A stretch of DNA of 64,000 nucleotides, taken from positions 62,001 to 126,000 of the forward strand of contig NZ_CANRKH010000002.1 in the NCBI RefSeq assembly GCF_947631165.1. Direction: 5' to 3'. Source of the DNA: an uncultured Dysosmobacter sp. (GTDB lineage: Bacteria > Bacillota > Clostridia > Oscillospirales > Oscillospiraceae). Positions 50,463 to 62,092 of the stretch are shown here, one piece after another; position 1 is the stretch's first letter; each line of letters starts with the position of its first letter. The translations under genes and the position numbers were made by a program. The notes under the pieces are model-generated. The model was not told the DNA's origin. It made no database searches and saw only the letters and a list, made by a program, of their open reading frames with translations.

Positions 50463-51200
50463 ATGATAACGAAAAAATATCAGCTTTGCGCCGTGGACGC
50501 TGGGGCGCGCTTCCTGTATGGGGGAATCGAATGGGTCAAGCTGACGACCGCCCGCGGCGACGGAGGGACGCTGGCCATTGCCGCGAACTCCGTTTTCAAC
50601 CGGGCGTTCGACGATGACAACTGCAACGACTGGCGCGCGTCCAGCTTGCGCCGGGAGTTGAACGGGCCGTTCCTTGACGCGCTGGTTGCGGAGGGCGCGG
50701 ACCGTGACGCTTTCATGGAGTTTGAAAGCGACTTGACCGCCGACGACGGAATGACGGACTACGGGACCGCGACGGACCGGGTGGCCCTGCTGACGTGCGA
50801 TCTTTACCGGCGCTTCCGCCGCCTGATTCCCCTTGTGGACGAATGGTGCTGGACACTTACCCCGTTTAGTTGCCTCCCGGAATATCGGAATTATGCCCGC
50901 CTCGTCGCTTCCTCCGGCACGCTGCTCGACAGCAGCGCGTACGACGGCTACTACGGCGTTCGCCCGCTTTGTAATTTCAAATCTGGAATCTTGGTATCTG
51001 TCATCGACGAAGAGGCGACCGCGGAAGAGGCCCGGCAAGATACCATCGGCGAAGCCGCCGACGCGATCTTGCAGACGCTGGACGAATTCGACCCGGAAAT
51101 TCGGGGCGACGCAATGGCCGCGGCCCTTGCCCGTATGTTCGCGGAAGTGATCGACGCGCAGAAAAGCAGAACCGACGAAACCGGCGCGGCGGAGGGCTGA
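50463..51200 (+). CDS. DUF6273-like phage protein with lectin-like fold
   Basis: ATG 50463 follows AAGGGGG. The 245-residue protein has the pattern W+ASSLRRELNGPFLDAL, a central segment and YDGYYGVRPLCNF, as in DUF6273/formylglycine-enzyme-like sequences. A helical, acidic C-terminal region (EEATAEEARQDTIGEA...) follows. Related domains serve as binding modules. The last gene before a 335-bp non-coding region. Confidence 0.6.
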   Translation: MITKKYQLCAVDAGARFLYGGIEWVKLTTARGDGGTLAIAANSVFNRAFDDDNCNDWRASSLRRELNGPFLDALVAEGADRDAFMEFESDLTADDGMTDYGTATDRVALLTCDLYRRFRRLIPLVDEWCWTLTPFSCLPEYRNYARLVASSGTLLDSSAYDGYYGVRPLCNFKSGILVSVIDEEATAEEARQDTIGEAADAILQTLDEFDPEIRGDAMAAALARMFAEVIDAQKSRTDETGAAEG

Positions 51201-51229
51201 CCCCCTCCCCGCCGCCGCAAAAACAGCAT

Positions 51230-51307
51230 AAAAGAAACCGCCCCGCCGGGCCTCCCACAGCCCGGCGAAGCGGATTCCGCCGATGAAAAAATATCATCTA
51301 TCAACCT
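51230..51307 (-). ncRNA. Candidate ~78-nt small RNA opposite to rep (possible copy-control RNA)
   Basis: Transcription is predicted from the minus-strand promoter at 51314-51342, starting near 51307. The terminator stem CCGC..CGCCGGGC with GCCCGGCG..GCGG (51238-51273) has an 8-nt loop and is followed on the minus strand by TTTCTTTT (51237-51230). There is no room for a protein. Rolling-circle plasmids use such short counter-transcripts to limit Rep synthesis. Whether the rep leader overlaps it is not known. Confidence 0.5.
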
Positions 51308-51313
51308 ATCAAA

Positions 51314-51342
51314 AGTATAGCACAAATCGGCGGAAAAGTCAA
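51314..51342 (-). promoter_or_regulatory. Near-consensus minus-strand promoter upstream of rep
   Basis: On the minus strand TTGACT (51342-51337) and TATACT (51319-51314) are separated by 17 bp. All annotated phage genes are on the other strand, so it must serve something other than a known gene. Confidence 0.7.
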
Positions 51343-51535
51343 CAAAAAACGCCGTTTTAATGCGGCGTGGCGGGCTTGTAATGGGTATTATCTTTCCTGC
51401 AAAGCCTTGTCACGCTGAACAGCGAAAACCGGGGGTCATGGGGCCGGGGGTCCCGCTCCACCCTTCCCCGTCATTGGGGGCGCAGGAAGGACCGACACGC
51501 CCGCTTCATCTTTCACAGAAAGAGGGTGAAGCGTT

Positions 51536-52357
51536 GTGCGAAGTTTCATGCGAGAAAAGAAAATCTTTTGCGGGTCACAATATCGGGAAGTCGATATATT
51601 CCCCTATTCGGACGCGCAGAGGACAGCGGCCAGCCGTGGGAAGCGGTCAAAGAAGGTCCGGGAATCGGAGCCGAAACAAAAGAACCTGAACGACAAGAAC
51701 GCCCGCCGGTATTTCACCCAGCAAGCGAACTTGAATTTCGGGGATGACCCGGACGCGTTGCACGTGACGGCCACGTATGGCCGGAAGTATCTTCCGCCGA
51801 CCATTGAGGCCGCGGAAAAGGAAGTGACAAACTACCTCCGCCGGGTCCAGTACACCCGGAAGAAAGAGGGGTTGCCGCCCCTAAAATATATGCTTGTCAC
51901 CGCGTACAGCACCGGGAAGGACGGGGAAAAGCCGGTTCGGATTCATCATCATATCATTATGTCCGGCGGGCTTGACCGCGACACCGTGGAAAGCCTATGG
52001 AGGAAGCGGAAGCGAAAGGGACAGAAACAGGGGGACAAGATCGGCTTTTGCAATGCGGACAGGTTGCAGGGGGACGAAAACGGAATCAGCGCCCTTTGCA
52101 CCTACCTTGTGAAACAGGCCGCGGGGAAAAAGCGTTGGTCCTCTTCCCACAACCTCGAAAAGCCGCAAAGCCGGACCAACGACGGGCGGTACAACCGGCG
52201 GCAGATCGAGAAAATCGCACGGGAGCGACCGGGCCGGGCGTTTTGGGAACGGAAATATCCGGGCTGGACCCTGACGGACGACGTTTACGGGGTCACATAC
52301 GAACACAACGATTTAACGGGCTGGTCAATCTATCTGAAATTGAGGAAAAAGGAATAG
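51536..52357 (+). CDS. Rolling-circle (HUH-type) replication-associated protein
   Basis: GTG 51536 is preceded by GAGGGTGA. The 273-residue protein has the HUH motif RIHHHIIMSGG near residue 140 and a candidate nicking tyrosine in ALCTYLVKQAAGKKRW near 190. KNLNDKNARRYFTQ lies upstream and the end is GWSIYLKLRKK. This matches the 'rolling circle replication-associated protein' found in Clostridia phages. It would nick an origin and start replication. Its presence in a phage with terminase and ParAB is unusual. Confidence 0.82.
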   Translation: MRSFMREKKIFCGSQYREVDIFPYSDAQRTAASRGKRSKKVRESEPKQKNLNDKNARRYFTQQANLNFGDDPDALHVTATYGRKYLPPTIEAAEKEVTNYLRRVQYTRKKEGLPPLKYMLVTAYSTGKDGEKPVRIHHHIIMSGGLDRDTVESLWRKRKRKGQKQGDKIGFCNADRLQGDENGISALCTYLVKQAAGKKRWSSSHNLEKPQSRTNDGRYNRRQIEKIARERPGRAFWERKYPGWTLTDDVYGVTYEHNDLTGWSIYLKLRKKE

Positions 52358-54457: not shown

Positions 54458-55136
54458 GTGTTTGACCTGAACCGAATTTACAACGCCGATTGCATGGAGG
54501 CAATGCGAGAAATCCCGGACAAATTCTTTCAACTTGCGATCACGGACCCGCCGTATGGAATCGGCCACGACGGACAGCGGAAGCGGGTTCACGACAACGT
54601 AAAGCACAACCGCAAATTTCACGCCCGGAAGGGCTGGGACAAAGAACCGCCGCCGCCCGAATACTTCCGGGAGTTGGAGCGGGTTTCCGAAAATCAAATC
54701 ATTTTCGGTGGGAACTATTTTGTCCCTTCCCTGAACCGCGGCACGCGGGGCTGGATTGTTTGGGACAAGGGCCAGCACGGGCTTTCACAGTCCGATTGCG
54801 AACTTGCGTATTCGTCGTTCGATTGCCCGACGCGGGTTGTCGTCATCAACCGGGCCGCGTTGCAGAGCGACGGGGGAAACCATACACCCGACGCAAAAGC
54901 CGGTCCGCCTGTATAAATGGATTTTGGGGAACTACGCGCGCCCCGGCGACAAGATACTTGATACACACGCCGGGAGCGGGTCAAGCTGTATTGCCTGTTA
55001 TGAAATGGGCTTTGACTTCCTCGCATTCGAGGCGGACCCGGATTACTGGCAAGCCGCGTCGAAGAGGCTTGCCGGGGTCATGGCGCAAATACGGTTTCAG
55101 GACTTGGAGAACATCGGACAAGAAACACTTTTTTGA
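54458..55136 (+). pseudogene. DNA adenine/cytosine-N4 methyltransferase (beta class), frameshifted at a G run
   Basis: GTG 54458 begins FDLNRIYNADCMEAM, TDPPYGIG (catalytic DPPY), then an NQIIFGGNYFV segment. At GGGGG (54872-54876) the frame shifts; one G fewer joins SDG to ETIHPTQKPVRLYKW, ILDTHAGSGSS (SAM-binding FxGxG-like) and the end. DPPY before the SAM motif is the beta-class order. It would modify phage or host DNA. Only one lesion, at a homopolymer: phase variation, real decay or a sequencing error. Confidence 0.82.
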
Positions 55137-55150
55137 AGGAGGTTTTTTCA

Positions 55151-55390
55151 ATGGCAGTTATCTTTTCGAGTTTTTGGACGTGGGCCGGAACGGTCATCCT
55201 GATTCTGGCCGTCGGCGGGGTTTTGCAAAACATCGTCGCCGCCGCCGCAAAGAAGCCGCCGAAACGGAAGATCACCGGCTGGGCAATCGGGGAGCGGCGG
55301 CACATCGAGATTGAAGGGGCAACGGAAGTTGACGTGCTTTCCGCCCTGAACACGTGGAAAGAGGGCAAAGAGAAAGAGGCGGGCCGATGA
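55151..55390 (+). CDS. Small phage membrane protein
   Basis: ATG 55151 follows AAGGAGG. The 79-residue protein has one transmembrane helix (FWTWAGTVILILAVGGVLQNIV) and a basic/acidic cytoplasmic tail (KKPPKRKI, HIEIEGATEVDVL). It overlaps the Dam gene by ATGA. Role unknown. Confidence 0.6.
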   Translation: MAVIFSSFWTWAGTVILILAVGGVLQNIVAAAAKKPPKRKITGWAIGERRHIEIEGATEVDVLSALNTWKEGKEKEAGR

Positions 55391-55843
55391 TGAATGCCGC
55401 GCTTTTGTCCAGCAAGAAAATGGACTATTGCACGCCGCAAGAATTTTTCGACCGGCTGAACGAAGAATTCGGGTTCACCCTTGACGCGGCGGCGACCGCG
55501 GAAAACGCAAAATGCCCGGCGTACTACACCCCGGAAACCGACGGGCTGAAAAGCCCGTGGAATGTTGCGGGGGGGTCCTGTATTCTGCAACCCTCCGTAT
55601 GGGCGCGATCTTGGCAAATGGGTTCGCAAGGCGTTTCAAGAGGCACAAGCCGGAACAACCGTTGTTCTGCTGATTCCGGCCCGGACGGACACGACGTATT
55701 TTCACGACTACATATACGGGAAAGCAGAAATCAGGTTTATTCGCGGGCGGTTGCACTTCACAGACGAAGCGGGCAACGCATACCCGCCCGCCCCCTTCCC
55801 GTCAATGGTGGTTATCTACAACGGAAAGAAGGAACAGGAATGA
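55387..55843 (+). pseudogene. Phage DNA N6-adenine methyltransferase (Dam, PF05869 type), frameshifted at a G7 run
   Basis: ATG 55387 starts ALLSSKKMDYCTPQEFFDRLN, FGFTLDAAATAENAKC and YYTPETDGL. At GGGGGGG (55569-55575) the frame changes; with six G the reading continues GGPVFCNPPYGRDLGKW (catalytic NPPY), LLIPARTDTTYFHDY, IRFIRGRLHF and APFPSMVVIY to TGA 55843. Such enzymes protect phage DNA. The second methyltransferase in this phage with a poly-G frameshift. Confidence 0.85.
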
Positions 55844-58833: not shown

Positions 58834-59610
58834 GTGAAAACAATATCAATCATCAACCTAAAAGGCGGCGTTGCAAAGACGCTGACCGCCGACAGCATGG
58901 CCCACATCCTCGCAACGTATCACGGCGCGCGGGTTCTGCTGATCGACAACGACAAACAGGGCAACACGTCAAAGGCGTTCGGGGTTCATTCCTACGACGA
59001 CAAGAGCATTTCGGACGTTCTGACCGCCCGGCGGCTTGACCCGTGGGAGGTCATCAGGAAAACCCGGTTCGAGAATATCGACGTAATGCCCGCAAATATG
59101 ACCCTGATTCGGGCGAACATGGAAGTTTTGATGGACAGCACGCGCCCCCAGCAAACGCGCCTCCGCGCCGCGCTGAACACCATTGCGACGGAAAATTTTT
59201 ACGATTACTGCATTATCGACAACGCCCCGGATATAAACATTTCCACGATCAACGCCCTTGTCGCCTCCGACGAAGTGATTATTCCGATCAAGATTGACGA
59301 ATACGCCTTTGACGGGCTGGCGGAACTGAAAGAGCAAATCGACAATACGCGGGACGACCTGAACCCGCGGTTGCGGCTGGCCGGTTGCCTGATTACCTGT
59401 TTTCAGCGGACGGACGCGGACAGGCAGGGCGAAGCGTGGTTGCAGGACAAGCCCGAATACCCGGTTTTCAAAACGCACATTCGCTATTCGGAGAAAGTCA
59501 CCGAAAGCACCTTTGCGAAGTCGCCCATTGCGGAATACAGCCGACGGAGCGCCGCGGCAATGGATTATATCGCCTTTGTGCGGGAGTATTTGGGGAGGGG
59601 CAAGGCATGA
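58834..59610 (+). CDS. parA: ParA-family partition ATPase
   Basis: GTG 58834 follows AGGAGG. The 258-residue protein has the deviant Walker A NLKGGVAKTLTA, LLIDNDKQGN (A'-type), and YCIIDNAPDIN (Walker B). It is the short type Ib/Soj class without an N-terminal DNA-binding domain. It would partition or position DNA with ParB, encoded 245 bp downstream. The Cys-rich gene between the two is unusual. Confidence 0.92.
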   Translation: MKTISIINLKGGVAKTLTADSMAHILATYHGARVLLIDNDKQGNTSKAFGVHSYDDKSISDVLTARRLDPWEVIRKTRFENIDVMPANMTLIRANMEVLMDSTRPQQTRLRAALNTIATENFYDYCIIDNAPDINISTINALVASDEVIIPIKIDEYAFDGLAELKEQIDNTRDDLNPRLRLAGCLITCFQRTDADRQGEAWLQDKPEYPVFKTHIRYSEKVTESTFAKSPIAEYSRRSAAAMDYIAFVREYLGRGKA

Positions 59611-59825
59611 TCGAAGAAAAAGAGGCCGTCCCCGAATACTGCAAAAACAACAAAGCGAAGATTCGCGCGTATCAATGCGAAATTTGCGACCATTTGGACG
59701 TTGACGACTTCACGGACAAGCGGTTTTGCGGCTTGGGGTATTATCCCGGTTGCGGGTGCGCGGAGGAATGCCGAAAGGCATTCAGGCCGATAAAAGGACG
59801 CGGAAGAATCGGCGTTCATTGCTGA
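59607..59825 (+). CDS. Cys-rich phage protein between parA and parB
   Basis: The 72-residue protein has YQCEICDHLDVDDF and RFCGLGYYPGCGCAEEC: eight cysteines, resembling a zinc-binding fold. It overlaps parA by 4 bp and ends 30 bp before parB, so it belongs to the partition cassette. Function unknown. Confidence 0.6.
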   Translation: MIEEKEAVPEYCKNNKAKIRAYQCEICDHLDVDDFTDKRFCGLGYYPGCGCAEECRKAFRPIKGRGRIGVHC

Positions 59826-59855
59826 TTGTCCGATTCGGACAGAAAGGGGCGCAAA

Positions 59856-61100
59856 ATGGGAAAATTCAACTTGAATCAGATTTTGAACGACGCTTCACGG
59901 AAAGCCGCCGCGGGCGGTGAGCCGAAAGCGCGCCCGGCGGAAGCTGAAATAAAGAAAATCAGCGTTTATGACCTTGTGCCGTCGGAGGACAATTTTTATT
60001 CCATGCGGGAGATCGACGAACTGAAAACGGCAATCGAAGTCGCCGGAAAGGTCCTGCAAAACCTTGTCGTCGTCCCGCTCGAAGCCGGGAAATACAAGGT
60101 CATTGCGGGACACCGCCGCCGCCTTGCTTCCCTTGCCCTTGTGGAAGAAGGGAAACCGCAATATGAATTCTTGCCGTGCGCCGTGGAGCCGAACGAGGCC
60201 GCGGCGGAAGATCAGGAAGTACGGGACGGGTTCTTGCTGATCGTGACGAATTCACAGCGGGAAAAGACCGCATGGGACCGAATCGAAGAAGTGCGGTATA
60301 TGCGGGAACTGTTGGAGAAAGCGAAAACGAAACCACGGTTCGTCGAAGCCCTGCAAAACATCGTCGCAACCGTGTTCAGCGGCGGCGACGTGCAGTTTGA
60401 CGGGACGCGGGATTTCCTCGCAAAAGTGCTTCACACCAGCCCGGCGCAGATCGGACGGTATGACGCGATCATTCGGAATCTGCAACCGGCGTTCGCGGAG
60501 GAATTGCGGGCGGAGCGAATCAATGTTTCGGCGGCGTATGAGTTGTCCGGCCTGACGGCGGAGCAACAGGCCGCGGCGTTCCGGGAGTATCAGCGGACCG
60601 GCGCAATTTCCATCAAGGACGCGCGGGCGTGGAAGCCGGACACGGCGGAGCGGGCAGAAACCGCCCCGCCCCCTCCCCCGCCGGTCACGGCGGAACCGGC
60701 GGAGCGGGACACGCCGCCCGCGGTTGCCCCCTCCCGGCCCGCGCAGGACGCGCAGGAAGCGCCGGAAGCGCGCGGACGGGTGGAAGGACCACCCGCGCGG
60801 GAAACGCCCACGGAGGCCCACGGAGGGCCGCAGGAAGGGCCGAAAGAGCCGCCCGCGCAGGAAGCGCCCGCGGAAGAGCCGACGGAACCCGCGCCGGAAC
60901 CTCCAGCACCGGCGGAGCCGCCCGCCTCTTCCCCGCCCGCGGCGGAGCCGACGGAAACGGAGGCGGAACGCGCCGTGAAGCTGATAAACGATTTTCTTTC
61001 CTACTGCATGAGCAAAGCGGAAATCGGGGAGCCGTCGAGAGATTGGGACAAAGACGTTCACGCGCTTTTGTACGTCCTGAACCGGCTGGAAGAGGGGTGA
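59856..61100 (+). CDS. parB: ParB/Spo0J-family partition protein with a Pro/Ala/Glu-rich linker
   Basis: ATG 59856 has AAAGGGG upstream. The 414-residue protein starts with the ParB N-domain (VYDLVPSEDNFYSM, VIAGHRRRLASL, NSQREKTAWDRI) and a helix-turn-helix region (DFLAKVLHTSPAQIGRYDAI). A ~110-residue Pro/Ala/Glu-rich stretch follows (60.65-60.96 kb), then a short C-terminal helix (AVKLINDFLSYCM). ParB would bind a parS-like site, not identified here. The disordered linker is longer than in most ParB proteins. Confidence 0.9.
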   Translation: MGKFNLNQILNDASRKAAAGGEPKARPAEAEIKKISVYDLVPSEDNFYSMREIDELKTAIEVAGKVLQNLVVVPLEAGKYKVIAGHRRRLASLALVEEGKPQYEFLPCAVEPNEAAAEDQEVRDGFLLIVTNSQREKTAWDRIEEVRYMRELLEKAKTKPRFVEALQNIVATVFSGGDVQFDGTRDFLAKVLHTSPAQIGRYDAIIRNLQPAFAEELRAERINVSAAYELSGLTAEQQAAAFREYQRTGAISIKDARAWKPDTAERAETAPPPPPPVTAEPAERDTPPAVAPSRPAQDAQEAPEARGRVEGPPARETPTEAHGGPQEGPKEPPAQEAPAEEPTEPAPEPPAPAEPPASSPPAAEPTETEAERAVKLINDFLSYCMSKAEIGEPSRDWDKDVHALLYVLNRLEEG

Positions 61101-62061: not shown

Positions 62062-62092
62062 CGGGCCTTGTTTTTTGCAAGGTCCGTTTTTT
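62062..62092 (+). terminator. Terminator between the late regulator and terminase genes
   Basis: CGGGCCTTG pairs with CAAGGTCCG (one G-T) around TTTTTTG and is followed by TTTTTT. It would block read-through into the packaging genes unless antiterminated, or mark the end of the early operon. Confidence 0.82.

Follow-up and report, generated by a model that had tools for sequence, protein, structure and literature searches.

A candidate countertranscript brake on a rolling-circle Rep in a prophage of an uncultured Dysosmobacter

The window analysed here is a 64-kb stretch of DNA from an uncultured Dysosmobacter sp. in which host-like genes extend up to ~48,000 and a prophage follows (lysS and greA were recognised by eye). 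In this prophage, a predicted antisense transcription unit lies between two plus-strand genes. The first, at 50,463-51,200, adjoins the 3' end of the predicted RNA and matches phrog_9958 and, weakly, DUF6273. The second is rep (51,536-52,357), which codes for a rolling-circle-type replication initiation protein (phrog_3584, E 2e-81). A candidate replication origin separates the unit from rep, and complementary segments connect the antisense promoter with the RNA and, in a number of related lineages, with the start of rep.

The antisense unit and the candidate origin

A sequence-only reading of the window had placed a TTGACT-17-TATACT promoter on the minus strand here, with a start near 51307, an intrinsic terminator and every gene in the region on the other strand. 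These elements are borne out by their positions, by the fold of the RNA and by conservation, and the genes around the unit all read as plus-strand genes. The promoter (51314-51342, minus strand) consists of TTGACT (51342-51337), a 17-nt spacer and TATACT (51319-51314), with TG one base ahead of the -10, i.e. a TG-extended -10. Based on the positions of promoter and terminator, an antisense RNA of ~78 nt is predicted at 51230-51307 (minus strand; start at 51306-51307). The stem of the intrinsic terminator stem-loop (51238-51273, minus strand) runs from 51273 to 51238 with 15 pairs, of which 12 are G-C, and is followed by TTTCTTTTAT in a T-rich run from 51237 down. The predicted 78-nt RNA folds at -42.5 kcal/mol (z -5.9, 200 shuffles). 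Promoter and terminator are the top-scoring sites of their kind within the prophage part of the 12-kb stretch that was scanned; the numbers of promoter-like sites (8 vs 3.5 +/- 2.1 in shuffles) and terminator-like sites (21 vs 16.7 +/- 4.5) over the whole scanned stretch are weak evidence taken alone. No plus-strand sigma-70-like site between 49,000 and 56,000 was listed in the promoter scan, and rep is, therefore, probably transcribed by read-through from upstream. In Rfam, no family matched the unit at its gathering score. A relaxed scan of 51150-51600 gave five sub-threshold matches with Ref55 at the top (21.7 bits vs the 43 needed, E 1.2); the word Ref55 was not found in the Enterococcus small RNA paper.

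Rep also matches phrog_3419 (rolling circle; E 3e-6) and PF23343 (28.3 bits, cut-off 27.8), and three consecutive His residues, which are invariant across 22 aligned Reps, place it in the rolling-circle (HUH) family. Its translation initiation region (51511-51550, plus strand) has a GTG start at 51536 after AGAGGGTG, as obtained by start calling. Upstream, on the same strand, lie the stem-loop of a candidate double-strand origin (dso) at 51349-51368, identified by reading, and the motif GGGCTTGTAATGGGTATTA at 51372-51390, which has one match in the window with 0.01 expected. We take this motif to resemble known nick sites, and treat it as the candidate nick site.

Relatives of Rep were sampled as 60 loci from viral contigs, the best 80 of 237 aligned relatives, of which 38 were on new contigs, and 40 genome loci. 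Including the window, 139 loci were available, some representing the same phage twice from two collections. The candidate nick site, CTTGTAATGGGTATTA, preceded by a stem-loop, is found 5' of rep in 133 of these 139 loci when up to five mismatches to the motif are allowed, and four of the six loci that lack it have <200 nt of upstream sequence. The arms of the stem-loop differ between phages, as seen by eye and unscored.

A search of 300 genomes of the same family matched 15, the window's own genome included; three others were strong, and their loci were added for the next screen. Among 110 distinct loci screened for a minus-strand promoter and terminator, the unit was present in 95 by a lax rule. 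Of these called units, 83 have a 17-nt spacer, 78 a TG-extended -10 and 89 a terminator stem that ends at +60 to +85. The promoter is directed away from the nick motif, and a median of 29 nt (9-113) separates the motif from the -35. By a strict rule, the unit was found in 76 of 109 distinct origin loci, compared with 0/106 of the same stretches on the opposite strand and 11/1500 random stretches; the corresponding numbers under the lax rule are 94/109, 6/106 and 133/1500. Thus, the antisense unit belongs to the origin, and the comparison supports the presence of a conserved small-RNA gene at this position. Three of the loci without a called unit (L102, L139 and L145) were, by reading, missed only because a stronger downstream hairpin was picked. 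In four loci without a called promoter (L041, L051, L095 and L096), a terminator-like hairpin was seen by eye beside the nick motif, as if the unit were reduced. A search of phage records by DNA gave no match, while a search by protein gave 20 records, all at <60% identity; a plasmid search gave a single record, from P. sordellii, which had no called unit. The unit is present in TMW 1.1365 P1 and TMW 1.1381 P1, two phages induced from Latilactobacillus curvatus strains.

Complementarities around the predicted antisense RNA

Lineages were defined as clusters at 75% identity. Two of the 44 clusters (L091 and L098) were judged spurious and dropped, leaving 42 lineages, although both remain counted among the 95 called units and in the control comparisons; L102-L104 are in the origin counts and outside the start tests. 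For validation, 44 loci on unused contigs, including five named phage or plasmid records, were reduced to 35 units (two had no upstream sequence, three no nick motif and four no unit) and, with 16 of the 35 units redundant, to 19 new lineages. Three of these (L199, L200 and L203) are named phages that had been read before testing, and results are also given without them. Duplex energies were computed with RNA parameters. The p values assume independent lineages, which is not fully the case; clustering at 75% lessens the kinship and does not remove it.

In the window, the complement of the promoter spacer (arm1', 51326-51335, plus strand), which lies outside the RNA, forms a perfect 10-nt inverted repeat with a segment inside the antisense target (arm2', 51275-51284, plus strand), such that the -10 lies in the loop with one arm on each side. 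This complementarity of the promoter spacer/-10 region to the first part of the RNA recurs across the 42 lineages, with a mean duplex energy of -15.5 kcal/mol vs -8.6 for swapped partners (Wilcoxon p 9e-11), and ranks within the best 5% in 27/42 lineages against swaps and in 33/42 against shuffles. The 19 new lineages gave the same result (-11.1 vs -7.3, p 0.0017, 9/19 at ≤5%), as did the 16 that remain without the three previously read phages (p 0.0021, 8/16). The positions of the arms differ among lineages, and the inverted repeat takes in the promoter spacer and sometimes the -10. That the arms change together between lineages suggests that they have a function. As one of the arms is not part of the RNA, the two can pair only within the plus-strand message or within single-stranded DNA.

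The spacer arm has a second match. Read as plus strand, it is complementary to the ribosome-binding/start region of rep (-11.75 vs -8.44, p 4e-6, 42 lineages), with 13/42 lineages at rank ≤5%, while eight shifted windows gave p 0.13-0.80. When the leader was folded with the RNA-covered part blocked, the expected pairs between arm1' and the start region rose from 4.4 to 9.0 in the 42 lineages and accessibility fell from 0.41 to 0.36 (p 5e-4; down in 22/42, up in 5/42). Under the same blocking, arm1' made more pairs with its own than with a foreign start region (11.5 vs 7.1, p 5e-6), with its own higher in 39/55; for this comparison, six of 61 lineages were left out as too long or cut.

In eight loci (L035, L147, L150, L153, L155, L156, L274 and L276), a gene of ~140-160 amino acids lies between the candidate nick site and rep. 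In L035, the one scanned of these long-leader loci, it is a DUF6017 gene. In a post hoc comparison, the match of the spacer arm to the start of the intervening gene has a rank ≤0.07 in four of the eight (L035, L150, L153 and L155). In close relatives (L002, L003, L006, L019, L063, L071 and L124), the sequence from nick site to rep contains, by eye, an insert with a large inverted repeat rich in G and with a segment resembling CCGCCGAGGGTG that is complementary to the spacer arm; this was not seen in the window.

A proposed countertranscript switch and its alternatives

The comparison shows a conserved anatomy of the unit and the complementarities described above. We suggest that they are best explained, and probably so, by a countertranscript brake on the rolling-circle Rep of the phage. 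In this model, the unit yields a short, probably constitutive antisense RNA that would restrain Rep synthesis through a switch in the rep leader. The rep message would be read through from upstream, and its leader would carry the complement of the RNA, which includes arm2', followed by arm1', the candidate nick site and rep. If the RNA is absent, arm2', as the pre-emptor arm, would pair with arm1' and Rep would be made. If the RNA covers arm2', arm1' would be freed to pair further downstream. In a good part of the lineages, its new partner would be the ribosome-binding/start region of the next gene; in the window's lineage, it would perhaps be the origin stem-loop, whose 5' arm stands ahead of four or five T, as in a transcription attenuator. 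With more phage copies, there would be more RNA and less Rep. The three competing pairings around an antisense RNA are the pattern of pT181/pSK41-type control. Transcription of the RNA and of the whole leader, a working switch and its control of the copy number are all inferred from the sequences. The longest frame upstream is on the plus strand in 42/61 lineages, on the minus strand in 14 and unreadable in five.

Several observations weigh against this model. The longest upstream frame is on the minus strand in 14 of the 56 lineages with enough sequence, and the unit was uncalled in 15/110 discovery loci and in 4/39 validation loci with a nick motif. In a test based on wobble pairs, pairing in the plus strand was favoured 11 vs 4, which is non-significant (p 0.12); a first, looser count gave 30 vs 22, plus 71 other mismatches. 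The first validation of the start-region match failed (p 0.17, 1/19 new lineages). Inspection showed misassigned start codons in divergent Reps, in which the match sets in within the protein. The starts were re-called by Shine-Dalgarno strength, blind to the arms and leaving the 42 discovery starts unchanged, and this repair was made after the failed validation had been seen. With the re-called starts, the match is significant in the 19 new lineages (p 0.016, 6/19 at ≤5%), in all 61 lineages (p 6e-7) and without the three previously read phages (p 0.029, 4/16 new lineages; p 1e-6, all 58 lineages), and a window starting at -25 or -5 was the best of up to 17 in 26/61 lineages. Nevertheless, only 19/61 lineages reach rank ≤5%, and two of the ten shifted windows, which span p 0.028-0.93, are at 0.03-0.04 uncorrected.

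The window's own lineage is a further difficulty. The sequence-only reading had raised RNA-based copy control of rep; the position and build of the unit, the co-varying arms and the match of the spacer arm to the start region argue for it, but in the window's lineage the start-region match is ordinary and non-significant (rank 0.41). Here, CGGCG of arm1' (51328-51332) can instead pair with CGCCG (51350-51354), which lies in the 5' arm of the origin stem-loop and just ahead of TTTT. When the RNA-covered part is blocked in transcripts that end with the T-run, the expected pairs of this stem rise from 0.2 to 5.0 in the window, and from 0.0-2.1 to 4.0-5.8 in all 16 members examined of 18. This rise is partly built in, since few other partners are left for arm1' in a cut transcript; in the complete leader, no single partner takes up the freed arm. 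The stem has just 5-6 bp with 4-5 T, and its 3' arm doubles as origin stem. As a suggestion only, the window's lineage may carry a weak candidate attenuator instead of the start-region pairing. As a general feature, the attenuator was rejected: an attenuator-like stem beats shuffled arms (p≤0.05) in only 8/42 representatives.

The unit may also be read as a single-strand origin (sso), an explanation that we regard as unlikely. On this account, the inverted repeat would fold the promoter region of the displaced plus strand into a hairpin that is read by the host RNA polymerase, and the short RNA would prime the lagging strand, as in plasmid sso, where folded single-stranded DNA serves as the promoter of a short primer RNA (PMC4595007, cited portion). 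If the nick falls in the plus-strand CTTG motif, the RNA is templated on the strand that would be displaced. The unit also sits immediately 5' of this motif, at the place where, according to the same portion of PMC4595007, most rolling-circle plasmids have their sso. Thus, position and orientation agree with an sso, assuming a plus-strand nick, as does the inclusion of the promoter spacer, and sometimes of the -10, in the inverted repeat. However, an sso accounts neither for the complementarity between spacer arm and rep start nor for an intrinsic terminator at a fairly fixed distance, and the -10 of the window sits in the loop of the inverted repeat. The two functions could both be true.

The RNA might also dispense with the switch and pair in trans, through its inner arm, with the rep start region, the spacer arm being incidental. 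The 5' part of the RNA does fit its own rep start better than foreign ones (-12.9 vs -10.9, p 0.018, 8/42 at ≤5%), but this signal is weaker than that of the spacer arm, for which such direct action has no need, and we consider it quite improbable. Still less probable is that transcription itself matters rather than the RNA, with divergent transcription opening the origin or colliding with rep read-through, as proposed for lambda pO. The short distance between the -35 and the nick motif and the direction of the promoter would suit such a role, and for lambda, the cited portion of PMC3985674 states that loss of pO activity raised pR transcription past pO; the co-varying arms and the start-region match are not predicted by it. 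Finally, a phage repressor could control the small promoter and use the inverted repeat as its operator, with another target for the RNA. Arms that flank the -10 and a repressor that could co-vary with its sites are compatible with this, but the positions of the arms vary between lineages and the match to the rep start is left unexplained; we consider this reading very improbable.

Known counterparts, the prophage and implications

The countertranscript brake has its closest counterparts in plasmids. As described in the cited portion of PMC5703833, RNAI of pT181, a Staphylococcus rolling-circle plasmid, is an 87-nt antisense RNA to the rep leader, and, as long as it is not bound, a pre-emptor occupies the 5' arm of a downstream stem-loop. 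The RNAI/repC attenuator of pT181 has the three-arm logic that is proposed for the phage unit. However, in pT181 the dso is inside rep and the stem-loop lies just before the start codon, whereas in the phage the switch and rep are separated by a candidate origin, the anti-start arm forms part of the spacer of the antisense promoter and the carrier is a tailed phage. RNAI of pSK41, also according to the cited portion of PMC5703833, is an antisense RNA of ~83 nt whose target is a part of the leader ~100 nt ahead of the start; when it binds, a stem-loop forms and masks the ribosome-binding site. This plasmid is closest in outcome to the lineages with start-region pairing; it is, however, a RepA_N theta plasmid with another initiator, unlike the rolling-circle Rep of the phage. 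In pMV158, the antisense RNAII inhibits translation of a rolling-circle initiator and acts jointly with the CopG repressor, a likeness that is drawn from the abstract of PMC4485353 and not from structure.

In phages, a precedent for a small antisense RNA beside an origin is lambda OOP. In the cited portions of PMC3349717 and PMC3985674, OOP is a self-terminating 77-nt antisense RNA made from pO beside ori-lambda and opposite to pR, and it is implicated in the plasmid-borne inhibition of lambda replication. Its established target is cII, the stability of O-P mRNA is reportedly unchanged (PMC3985674), and these portions describe no three-arm switch of the kind proposed for the phage unit. An OOP-type antisense action on cII was rejected as a candidate here: the gene at the 3' end of the RNA, with its matches to phrog_9958 and weakly to DUF6273, does not belong to the cII family. 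Extrachromosomal mycobacterial prophages with parABS have RNA-based origins; according to the cited portion of PMC7157519, they lack RepA and use an initiator RNA, whereas here the Rep gene is the proposed target. In the single-strand origins ssoA, ssoU and ICEBs1 sso1, RNA polymerase reads a folded single strand and makes a short RNA; in plasmids, such origins mostly stand 5' of the dso (cited portions of PMC4595007 and PMC5703833). The phage unit differs from them in its near-consensus promoter, intrinsic terminator and rep start match.

Further along the prophage, the terminase small subunit gene lies at 62,068, and genes for gpA-type terminase, lambda-type portal, tail, baseplate J and phage lysozyme proteins follow at or past the end of the window. 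The prophage looks integrated, with greA- and lysS-like genes to its left (by eye) and an ABC transporter gene to its right (L122:14701-15393). At its left border, a perfect TTGACA-17-TATAAT is found on the minus strand (48007-47979) ahead of the greA-like gene. At 54458-55136 and 55354-55843, a DNA methyltransferase-like gene and, by eye, the gene after it each appear split over two overlapping frames, by decay or an assembly error. ParA- and ParB-like genes are found at 58834-61100, and a transposase-like gene (HTH_38, rve) at L122:10689-11735.

Beyond what the sequence-only reading had noted, our analysis adds the adjoining candidate nick site, the inverted repeat that reaches into the promoter spacer and the conservation of the unit. 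We propose, with about even confidence, that these elements form a so far undescribed compact control module in a family of tailed phages and prophages that is found mostly in Firmicutes and replicates through a rolling-circle Rep of the phrog_3584 type. In this module, nick site, antisense promoter and RNA switch would lie within ~160 bp, and the promoter spacer would double as anti-start arm, so that promoter, RNA and rep start would co-evolve; the transcript may also prime the lagging strand. No report of such a module was found in titles, openings of abstracts and selected passages of open-licence PMC papers. If true, plasmid-style copy control would operate in a large, little-studied group of tailed phages and would help to explain how phages with parAB-like genes could persist as low-copy plasmids. 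Incompatibility groups would be predicted, with mutual exclusion expected between phages that share an RNA. The promoter spacer would also be an example of double selection, a feature that can be looked for elsewhere.
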